Assembly: GCA_026399835.1 (NCBI GenBank)
Contig: JAPLQE010000034.1
Coordinates: 1 to 60,547 of the forward strand
Reading direction: 5' to 3'
Source: Burkholderiales bacterium
GTDB taxonomy: Bacteria; Pseudomonadota; Gammaproteobacteria; Burkholderiales; Burkholderiaceae_E
Length of the DNA: 60,547 nucleotides
Under the pieces are notes generated by a model. That model was not told the DNA's origin. It worked only from the letters and a program-made list of their open reading frames with translations, and did no database searches. Positions within the stretch are counted from its first letter, which is position 1, and every line of letters begins with the position of its first letter. This document shows positions 26,632 through 31,210 of the stretch, piece by piece. The translations under genes and the position numbers were made by a program.

Positions 26632-26973
26632 TCAGATGCCGCGCGGGCCGGATTCGCCGCGCGCCGGCTGGCGGGCGACGTCGGTCGGCGAAGCGGCCTC
26701 GGCCGCGCGGGCCGTGGCCTTCGAGGCCGAGTCCGCGTCGCGCCGCAGCCGCCCGATCGAGCGGCGCTGGCGCAGCACCAGCGGCATCGTGGCGATCACG
26801 CCGATCAGGGCGCCCGCGGCAAAGAACAGCAGCAGGAACAGCACGAGCGGCGCACGCCACTCGAACTCGGGGATGCCGAAGAACCGCAGGGTCGCGGTGT
26901 CGGTGTTCGACAGCGCGAACCCCATCATCACGAGGAACAGGCCCAGCCTGAACAGCCAGCTCAGCAGCCGCAT
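26632..26973 (-). CDS. lapA: LapA-domain inner-membrane protein (YciS-like)
   Basis: A 113-aa protein with two hydrophobic helices (about 4-22 and 42-66) and a cytoplasmic coiled tail (RQRRSIGRLRRDADSASKATARAAE, broken here by A/R repeats). It belongs to the lipopolysaccharide assembly A domain family, partner of LapB in LPS biogenesis. It lies between ihfB (22-bp gap) and lapB (35-bp gap), the conserved order in proteobacteria. Confidence 0.9.
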   Translation of the reverse strand: MRLLSWLFRLGLFLVMMGFALSNTDTATLRFFGIPEFEWRAPLVLFLLLFFAAGALIGVIATMPLVLRQRRSIGRLRRDADSASKATARAAEAASPTDVARQPARGESGPRGI

Positions 26974-26995: not shown

Positions 26996-27301
26996 TCAGC
27001 GCTCGTCGCCGTCGGCGCGGGCGCGCACGTCGACCCGCTCGCGCAGCTCCTTGCCCGGCTTGAAGTGCGGCACCCGCTTCTCGGGCACCTGGACGCGCTC
27101 GCCCGACTTCGGGTTGCGACCGATCCGCGGCGGTCGGTGCGACAGCGCGAAGCTGCCGAAGCCGCGGATCTCGATCCGGTGACCGTCGGCCAGCGTCTTG
27201 GCCATCGCGTCGAGGATCGTCTTGACCGCGAACTCGGCGTCCTTCGCGACCAGTTGCGGATACCGCTCGGCGAGCCGCGCGATGAGCTCCGACTTGGTCA
27301 T
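26996..27301 (-). CDS. ihfB: Integration host factor subunit beta
   Basis: A 101-aa DNA-bending protein of the HU/IHF family. It begins [17 protein letters not shown], and the DNA-inserting beta arm contains [12 protein letters not shown] with the intercalating proline. ATG 27301 is chosen over an upstream ATG (27337) because IhfB proteins start MTKSEL. It follows rpsA, as in most proteobacteria. The short C-terminal acidic/basic end (RARADGDER) is a variable tail. Confidence 0.95.
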
Positions 27302-27369
27302 CGTCCCGGGGGACTGCTGATCGTCGATGTCGAGCATGGCGGCCTGAACGGATCCGGTGGATGGGGCCC

Positions 27370-27451: not shown

Positions 27452-29040
27452 TTACTTGGTGGGCTCTTCGCCGCCGGTCAGCTTGGCACGCAGCAGCGCG
27501 CCGAGGTTGGTGGTGCCGGTGGCGGCACCGCTCTCGGCCTGCATGCGCTGGATCGTCTCGGCGGTCTCGACGGTGTCCTTCGCCTTGATCGACAGGCTGA
27601 TCGAACGGTTCTTGCGGTCGATGTTGATGATCATCGCCTCGACCTGATCGCCTTCCTTCATGTGCATGCGGGCATCCTCGACGCGATCGCGCGAGATCTC
27701 GGACGCACGCAGGTAGCCGTCGATGTCGCCACCGATATGGACCACCGCACCTTTCGGGTCGACGCTCTTCACGGTCCCGACCACGACGTGGCCCTTCTCG
27801 TGCTGCGAGGCGTAGCTGGTGAACGGATCGCCGTCGAGCTGCTTGATGCCGAGCGAGATGCGCTCGCGCTCGACGTCGATGGCCAGCACCACGGCGCCCA
27901 CGTCGTCGCCCTTCTTGAACTCGCGCACGGCCTCTTCGCCGGTCTTGCTCCAGGAGAGGTCGGACAGATGCACCAGGCCGTCGATGCCGCCCGGCAGGCC
28001 GAGGAACACGCCGAAGTCGGTGATCGACTTGATCGTGCCCGAGACCTTGTCGCCCTTGCGGTGGTTCTCGGCGAATTCCTGCCACGGGTTCGGACGGCAC
28101 TGCTTCATGCCGAGCGAGATCCGGCGGCGGTCCTCGTCGATCTCCAGGACCATGACCTCGACCTCGTCACCCAGCGACACCACCTTGCCGGGGTTGACGT
28201 TCTTGTTGGTCCAGTCCATCTCGGAGACGTGCACCAGGCCTTCGATGCCCGGCTCGATCTCGACGAAGGAGCCGTAGTCGGTGATGTTCGTGACCTTGCC
28301 GAACATGCGCGTGCCGGTGGGGTACCGACGCGAGATGCCGACCCACGGGTCGTCGCCGAGCTGCTTGACGCCCAGCGAGACGCGGCCAGGTCGATGAACG
28401 CACCGTAGTCGGTGATGTTCTTGACGGTACCCTTGACGATCGAGCCTTCCTGCAGCGTCTCGAGCAGCTTCGCGCGCTCTTCGCCCTGCGACAGCTCGAT
28501 GACGGCGCGGCGCGAGACCACGACGTTGTTGCGCTTGCGGTCGAGCTTGATGACCTTGAACTCGAGCGTCTTGCCCTCGTACGGGGTCGTGTCCTTGACC
28601 GGACGCATGTCGATCAGCGAACCCGGCAGGAACGCACGGATGCCGTTGGTCATGACGGTCAGGCCGCCCTTGACCTTGCCGGTGATCGTGCCTTCGACCA
28701 GGGTGCTGTCGTCGAGCGCGCGCTCGAGGTTGACCCAGGCCGCCAGCCGCTTGGCGCGGTCGCGCGACAGGCGCGTCTCGCCGTAGCCGTTCTCGAGCGA
28801 ATCGATGGCGACGGAGACGAAGTCGCCTTCCTTGACGTCGAGCTCGCCGCGATCGTTGTGGAACTCCTCGATCGGGATGAAGCTCTCGGATTTGAGTCCG
28901 GCGTTGACGACCACGAAGTTGTGGTCGATGCGGACCACCTCGGCGGTGATCACCTCGCCCTGCCGCATCTCCTGCTTGGAGAGCGACTCTTCGAAGAGCT
29001 TCGCGAAACTCTCGGTCTCTGGAATGGAAGTAGTGTTCAA
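27452..29040 (-). pseudogene. rpsA: 30S ribosomal protein S1, interrupted by an internal deletion and frameshift
   Basis: S1 carries mRNA to the ribosome through six S1 (OB) domains. Here the gene reads in one frame from 29040 to about 28386 (domains 1, 2 and the start of domain 3, ending DYGAFIDL). It resumes in another frame from about 28385 with RVSLGVKQL, the end of domain 3, then intact domains 4-6 and the C-terminus to 27452. Against other S1 proteins about 41 residues of domain 3 are missing; restoring about 124 nt also restores a single frame. As sequenced, translation runs into an unrelated frame that stays open until 28105. rpsA is essential, so an assembly or sequencing error is the likeliest cause. 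The start is TTG 29040 with AGGA upstream. Neighbours cmk and ihfB are standard. Confidence 0.9.
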
Positions 29041-29165: not shown

Positions 29166-29885
29166 CTACCCTTGCGCCGACCAGAGCTCGAGCACCTTCT
29201 TCACCGTCTCGTCGATGGAGAGCGAGGTCGAATCCAGGACGTGCGCACCTTCTGCCTGGGCCAGCGGGGCGACCGAGCGCGATGCGTCGCGCGCGTCCCG
29301 TTCCCGCAGATCCTTCAAAAGGCCGGGGAGATTAGCAGAAATCCCCTTTTCGATCAACTGCTTATGGCGGCGGTCCGCGCGCGACTCGGCGCTGGCCGTC
29401 AGGAACACCTTGAGCGCGGCGTCCGGGAAGACCACGGTGCCCATGTCGCGACCGTCGGCGACCAGGCCCGGAGGGCGCCGGAAACCGCGCTGCAGGCCGA
29501 GGAGCGCCGTGCGCACGCCGGCGTGGACCGCCAGCCGCGAGGCGCCGTTGCCGACCGCTTCGTCGCGGATCGCGTCGGTGACCTCCTCCCCGCCGAGGAC
29601 GATCCGGCCGTCGTCGGTGAAGCTCACCGGCAGGCCGGCGGCGAGCCGCGCGAGCCCCTCGGCGTCGTCGAGGGGCACGCCGGCGCGCAGCGCCGCGAGC
29701 GCGGTCAGGCGATAGAGGGCCCCGCTGTCGAGATAGTGCCAGCCGAGCGTCCGGGCGACCCGCTGCGCGATCGTGCCCTTGCCCGAGGCCGTCGGGCCGT
29801 CGAGGGCGAGCACCGGCGCGATGCGGGCGTCGATCGACGCGGGCGCCGGGCGCCGTCCGGCCCGCGGCGTCGGGTTGCCGCTCAT
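29166..29885 (-). CDS. cmk: Cytidylate kinase
   Basis: A 239-aa (d)CMP kinase. The P-loop is [14 protein letters not shown] at about residues 28-41, DSGALYR follows, and [13 protein letters not shown] with the RADRRHKQL lid are typical. About 22 residues precede the usual start ([17 protein letters not shown]); these may be untranslated if a later start is used, but ATG 29885 overlaps the aroA stop (ATGA), which supports it. The aroA-cmk-rpsA-ihfB order is conserved. Confidence 0.95.
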
Positions 29886-31210
29886 CGGGCCCGGATGGGC
29901 TCGACGTCGATGCCCGCCTCGCGGGCGAGTGCGACGAAGTTCGGGAACGAGGTGCCGACGTTGGCGGTGTCGGCGATGCGGATCGGACCCGCCGCACGCA
30001 GCGAGGCGACCGAGAAGGCCATCGCCGGCCGGTGGTCGCCGTGCGAGTCGACCGCGCCCCCGGAGAACACGTCCGCGCGATCGCCGCGGCCCTCGATGAC
30101 GATGCCGTCGGGCGTCGGGGTGGCGTCGATGCCCAGCGCGCGCAGCCCCTCGGCCATCACGGCGATGCGGTCGGACTCCTTGACGCGCAGTTCCTCGGCG
30201 CCGGTGACGGTGGTGCGGCCGCGCGCGCAGGCGGCAGCGATGAACAGCACCGGGAACTCGTCGATCGCGAGCGGCACGAGCTCGGGCGGCACGTCGATGC
30301 CGCGCAGCGACGAAGAGCGGATCCGCAGGTCGGCGACCGGCTCGCCGCCGACGGTGCGCGGATGCTCGAGCGTCAGGTCGGCGCCCATCAGCCTCAGGAT
30401 GTCGATCACGCCGGTACGCGTCGGGTTCGTGCCGACGTGACGCAGCAGCAGGTCCGCGTCGCGGGCGATCGCGCCGGCCACCAGGAAGAACGCCGCCGAC
30501 GAGATGTCGGCGGGCACGTCGATGTCGGCGGCGCGCAGCGCGACGCCACCGCGCACGGTGACGGTCGCGCCGTCGACCGCGACCGGCACGCCGAAGGCGC
30601 CGAGCATCCGCTCGGTGTGGTCGCGGGTCGGCGCGGGCTCGGTCACCCGGGTCTCGCCCTCGGCATACAGGCCGGCCAGCATCAGCGCCGACTTCACCTG
30701 GGCGCTGGCCACCGGCATCGTGTAGTCGATGCCGTGCAGCCGTCCGGCCGGCGGATGGATCCGCAACGGCGGGCGGCCGTCGGCGGAGTCGATGCGCGCG
30801 CCCATCCGTGCGAGCGGCTCGGTCACGCGCTTCATCGGGCGGCGCGTCAGGCTCGCGTCGCCGACCAGCCGGGCCTCGAAGCCCTGGCCGGCGAGCAGCC
30901 CGGACAGCAGGCGCATCGAGGTCCCCGAGTTGCCGCAGTCGAGGTCGACGGTCGGCGCGCGCAGCCCGTGCAGCCCGACCCCTTCGACCGTGACGCGACC
31001 GTCGGACGGCCCGTCGATGCGCACGCCGAGCGCGCGGAACACGTTCATCGTCGAGATCGCGTCCGCGCCCTCGAGGAAGCCGGTGACACGCGTCGTGCCG
31101 GTGGCGATCGCGCCCAGCATGATCGATCGATGCGAGATCGACTTGTCGCCGGGAACGCGCAGCGCACCGCGCACGGCGCCGGCGGGTCGGGCGATGAAAT
31201 GGTCGGACAT
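29882..31210 (-). CDS. aroA: 3-phosphoshikimate 1-carboxyvinyltransferase (EPSP synthase)
   Basis: A 442-aa enzyme of the shikimate pathway that joins phosphoenolpyruvate to shikimate 3-phosphate. [31 protein letters not shown] and [14 protein letters not shown] match class I EPSP synthases; the glycine and proline residues around NSGTSMR are the ordinary class I form. ATG 31210 fits the family. A TACAAT on the minus strand (31268-31263) is a plausible -10 giving a ~45-nt leader. It is divergent from the next gene. Confidence 0.96.

Follow-up and report, generated by a model that had tools for sequence, protein, structure and literature searches.

The S1 protein of Escherichia coli serves here as a guide to which parts of this ribosomal protein a bacterium can do without. 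As described in PMC3858243, domains 1 to 3 are needed for viability, with domain 3 needed for mRNA binding and growth; cells without domains 4–6 grow very slowly, and the loss of domains 3–6 is lethal. Work on metagenome assembly bears on the locus considered here from another side, in that conserved regions shared between genomes are said to fragment contigs and to cause intergenomic errors (PMC8021871), and similar breaks are described around resistance genes in metagenome assemblies (PMC11479545).

The locus lies in a window of 60,547 nucleotides, the whole stretch of DNA that was analysed, which corresponds to positions 1–60547 of contig C52 in the draft genome G000 (4.95 Mb in 93 contigs, 97.95% complete). 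Its rpsA gene occupies 27452–29040 on the minus strand and switches frame at about 28384–28387. The S1 frame is open from 29040 down to the motif DYGAFIDL, the last codon of which ends at 28387, and the S1 sequence is picked up in a different frame at 28384 with RVSLGVKQL, remaining open until the stop at 27452 (Table 1). This is where the original prediction had placed a frameshift, associated with the loss of 124 nt and of some 41 residues of S1 domain 3, and the alignments presented below agree with it on all three points. In the usual gene order aroA and cmk lie upstream of rpsA; both are found there in the window by their Pfam domains, and in G011, G005 and G003, among other relatives, aroA likewise precedes rpsA at a short distance on one contig. 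The start codon at 29040 seems to be TTG, a codon found at the same place in each of the six relatives looked at (L010, L012, L013, L014, L027 and L017).

Table 1. Features of the rpsA region, in window coordinates
Feature	Position	Strand	Basis or remark
rpsA 5' part: S1 domains 1 and 2, first part of domain 3; start codon probably TTG	28387–29040	-	NF004954, PF00575
Junction; 124 nt of relatives absent, frame changed	28384–28387	-	BLASTN, flank placement; occurs once in window
rpsA 3' part: last part of domain 3, then S1 domains 4, 5 and 6, stop at 27452	27452–28384	-	NF004954, PF00575
Out-of-frame tail added to truncated S1 (311-aa ORF 28105–29040)	28105–28384	-	ORF list
cmk, upstream neighbour, open frame	29166–29864	-	Pfam PF02224
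aroA, upstream neighbour, open frame	29882–31210	-	Pfam PF00275
HU/IHF-type DNA-binding protein, downstream neighbour	26996–27337	-	Pfam PF00216
LapA-domain protein, downstream neighbour	26632–26973	-	Pfam PF06305
LapB-like TPR protein, downstream neighbour, start not fixed	from 25406	-	Pfam PF18073

The size of the gap was established by aligning the window rpsA, by BLASTN, with 29 loci from relatives and with its own locus. The alignment parted into two pieces at the junction in 27 of the 29 relative loci, the remaining two (L011 and L023) being cut by contig ends. When 150 nt of each rpsA flank were placed separately on the 29 loci, the spacing between them was greater by exactly 124 nt in all 27 loci that hold both flanks, which L011 and L023 do not. 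In the gene numbering of the closest relative, G011, the missing stretch is nt 656–779, inside S1 domain 3. Against the 560 positions of the NF004954 profile, the left piece matches positions 2–211 and the right piece 254–557, leaving about 42 profile positions absent, and the two pieces score 358.9 and 522.6 bits, compared with 991.9 bits for the intact G011 homologue and a cut-off of 727 for the whole protein. Likewise, PF00575 finds two and three S1 stretches in the two pieces, which lie in two frames, versus six in the G011 homologue, and with this Pfam model no single frame of the window rpsA was found to hold all six S1/OB domains. The gap is present in the assembled sequence, although the organism itself most likely does not have it. 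The overlap of the two open frames around the junction might suggest that ribosomal frameshifting or a similar form of recoding joins them into one product; however, recoding would not bring back the 41 residues lost from domain 3, no slippery heptamer was seen by eye at the junction, and the junction recurs in no locus from another genome, all of which makes recoding extremely improbable.

The state of rpsA in relatives was assessed at two depths. In a set of 61 genomes, the present one included, 59 had an rpsA match, which was one long match in an open frame in 49 other genomes and partial or split in nine (G001, G002, G004, G008, G009, G010, G014, G015 and G022), and no rpsA match was found in G019 or G032. 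In a draw of 300 genomes across the order, 293, again counting the present one, had a match at E values up to 1e-60, and seven had none even at E up to 1e-20 with all candidates scored. These seven are G070 and G261, both 99% complete, together with G130, G159, G176, G275 and G315; the first two indicate that rpsA, although S1 counts as essential, can be absent from good drafts, perhaps through being dropped in assembly. At the level of individual loci, 131 of the 141 fetched are without the junction and the ten that have it all derive from the window's own locus; it is absent from all 124 loci fetched from other genomes. Domain 3 is ungapped in 108 of these 124 (four genomes being counted twice), whereas in the remaining 16, which consist of flanking sequence or stop at a contig end, domain 3 is not covered whole.

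Two further observations were made among the relatives. A second S1-like gene occurs beside a full-length rpsA at G152:C83:164481-165827 (L146), where the match comprises residues 8–458 within a 635-aa frame, and at G207:C37:249761-251440 (L145), in a genome with 6% contamination. Two metagenome contigs titled Bordetella parapertussis (L059 and L094) match the window S1 at 75% and 74%, no better than other genera do, and their labels may be doubtful.

A second rpsA in the rest of the genome, for which the original prediction had proposed a search, was not found when the 93-contig G000 assembly was searched with PF00575. The matches outside C52 lie on C31, C69, C62 and C81 and all belong to other proteins: those on C69 and C62 are PNPase and RNase R, both above their NCBIfam cut-offs, and that on C81 is an RNase E/G-family protein, which scores above the cut-off of TIGR00757 and, on the stretch examined, below that of the RNase E equivalog model. 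The S1-domain protein on C31 we take, from its features, to be Tex-like. Nor was the lost middle of domain 3 found in G000 with a 261-nt query from the G011 gene that reaches across the lost segment, which matched the two flanks, paralogous S1 domains and some short, weakly matching sequences. A stray copy of the lost stretch, or a second rpsA, elsewhere in the assembly was rejected on these grounds.

Considering whether the gene has been released from constraint, the codons of the two halves were compared with those of G011. All 16 differences in the 218 codons of the left part are synonymous, and the 311 codons of the right part show 13 synonymous and two non-synonymous differences. No decay was seen in either half in this comparison, and each has the look of belonging to a functional S1. 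Five of the 16 left-part mismatches lie within the 60 nt that adjoin the junction (p = 0.0075 for this particular place); a chimeric left flank is at most hinted at by this cluster, since one as dense arises somewhere in the gene in 45% of random draws.

The product predicted from the sequence as it stands would consist of domains 1 and 2, the first part of domain 3 and an out-of-frame tail, and would by analogy resemble the lethal E. coli case. This weighs against a real and very recent deletion of 124 nt, whether in the sequenced strain itself or in a minority one, that would have inactivated the only rpsA seen and would be either lethal or tolerated by means of a second S1 absent from the draft. 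Such an event would account for the clean junction, with its 0–1 nt of microhomology, as in illegitimate deletion, and EF-G and rpoB are both whole in the same assembly. It is nevertheless improbable, given the need for domains 1–3 in E. coli (PMC3858243), the lack of a second rpsA in a draft of such completeness, the undecayed state of both halves, and the position of the left edge among widely shared k-mers and near the contig ends of other drafts, as described below.

A more radical reading has the two pieces working as separate polypeptides, with domains 1–2 translated from the first ORF and domains 4–6 from an internal start. An ATG at 28306 in the downstream frame is followed by an open frame of 284 aa, and this part is conserved, but the same part lies in an uninterrupted gene in relatives, so that its conservation needs no split; no Shine–Dalgarno-like run was seen by eye just upstream of 28306, and domain 3, required in E. 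coli (PMC3858243), would be lost. We consider a functional split S1 very improbable, and just as slight the prospect that a betaproteobacterium really lives with domains 1–2 and 4–6 on separate chains and domain 3 gone. No report of a split or frame-broken rpsA was found by title among the literature matches listed. Were the gap genuine, the view that S1 domain 3 is indispensable would be called into question.

We return, then, to the assembly as the source of the gap, and to the quality of the drafts involved. No 16S rRNA gene was detected in G000 by a search that, as a control, found it in nine of 14 known genomes. The absence of 16S rRNA is common in metagenome drafts, and we infer that G000 is a metagenome-assembled draft, which the missing gene fits. 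The frames around the other S1-domain matches in G000 are long and without stops. In the window, at least 53 frame-switch pairs were counted, 14 at the rpsA junction and at least 39 elsewhere, in a survey in which coverage by relatives is thin beyond about 36 kb. The relatives' ORFs were scanned for 30 of the 39 listed switches outside rpsA, and no broken Pfam domain was seen among them: 25 had no domain, and in five the domain (alanine racemase N-terminal, S20, cytidylate kinase, metallo-beta-lactamase superfamily and DUF2237) falls entirely to one side of the frame change. As the rest of the assembly is not visibly poor, the fault, if there is one, is local.

Among the 11 genomes of the same genus, six have rpsA split or incomplete (G001, G002, G004, G008, G009 and G010), EF-G is partial or not found in six (G002, G004, G005, G006, G008 and G010), and aroA is partial in one (G007), giving p = 0.06 for breakage of rpsA versus aroA and p = 1 for rpsA versus EF-G. 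The contrast between rpsA and aroA vanishes outside the genus, where, among 25 other genomes of the family, rpsA is not whole or not found in five (G014, G015, G019, G022 and G032) and aroA is truncated, weakly matched or not found in five (G019, G022, G023, G032 and G033). A breakage of rpsA special to its S1 repeats was rejected, with EF-G faring alike within the genus and rpsA equalling aroA outside it, and general conservation is a better explanation of the breakage than S1 repeats. With rpsA and EF-G each failing to appear in one piece in six of these 11 same-genus drafts, a conserved essential gene that seems broken or missing in such a draft should not be taken for a lost one.

Within the G011 rpsA, exact repeats reach at most 19 nt (at gene nt 621 and 876); collapse of an internal repeat was rejected, as the lost segment is not flanked by a repeat, does not correspond to a domain in length and has only 0–1 nt of microhomology at its edges. 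Sharing between species was examined with 31-mers, leaving out L011 and L023, which are cut by contig ends there. The 31-mers starting at gene nt 641–747 are common to an average of 4.0 of 106 relative loci, compared with 0.86 elsewhere, and the 31-mer at nt 655, on the edge of the loss, is present in 33 of the 106 loci, the maximum being 35. Equally wide sharing occurs elsewhere in the gene, the 31-mer bin 901–960 also averaging 4.0, and with 21-mers the maxima of sharing lie at nt 946, 1132–1134 and 616–618. In three drafts from other genera (G014:C15, L065 and L090) the contig ends at codons 221–222, 6–9 nt from the window's own left breakpoint at codon 218/219. A uniform model gives p = 0.004 for three ends falling at this particular place, but in 45% of random sets a nine-codon window somewhere in the gene holds three of the 20 contig ends, so that such clustering is not rare gene-wide. 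These 20 ends are those come across and form a non-exhaustive set; the ends in G008, G010 and G014 were checked against the extent of the contig and those of L065 and L090 against record ranges, and the rest are taken from match coordinates. Though the statistics are weak, sequence shared between species suggests itself as a better candidate cause than internal repeats.

A plausible, if statistically weak, mechanism is that the assembly graph would branch where S1 domain 3 begins, in DNA that may be nearly identical in several genera, and that an assembler, scaffolder or gap-closer could then have dropped the ambiguous stretch and joined its flanks. Judged from assembled sequences, the 124-nt gap is very probably an artefact of genome assembly, chiefly because no second copy was found, the gene is intact in relatives, neither half shows decay and domain 3 is essential. 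In the living cell rpsA is most likely a single, unbroken gene of the usual six-domain kind, and as biology the gap very probably does not matter. The cause given in the original prediction, an assembly or consensus error in a repeat-rich gene, is accordingly supported in its first part, by the single rpsA, the absence of the segment elsewhere in the assembly and of the junction from loci of other genomes, the lack of decay and the frequent cutting of rpsA in related drafts; repeats as the cause are not supported, the 19-nt repeat not flanking the loss.

Compared with the six-S1-domain bS1 proteins (NF004954/TIGR00717), both pieces of the window gene match in order, beside cmk and an HU/IHF-type gene, but without the roughly 42 profile positions and with a change of frame between them. 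The breaks and errors caused by interspecies repeats in metagenome assemblies, as far as these are described in PMC8021871, differ from the present case in that the window contig continues, with an internal loss of 124 nt in place of a contig end; the likeness lies in the widely shared stretch at the breakpoint and in the contig ends of other drafts close to it.
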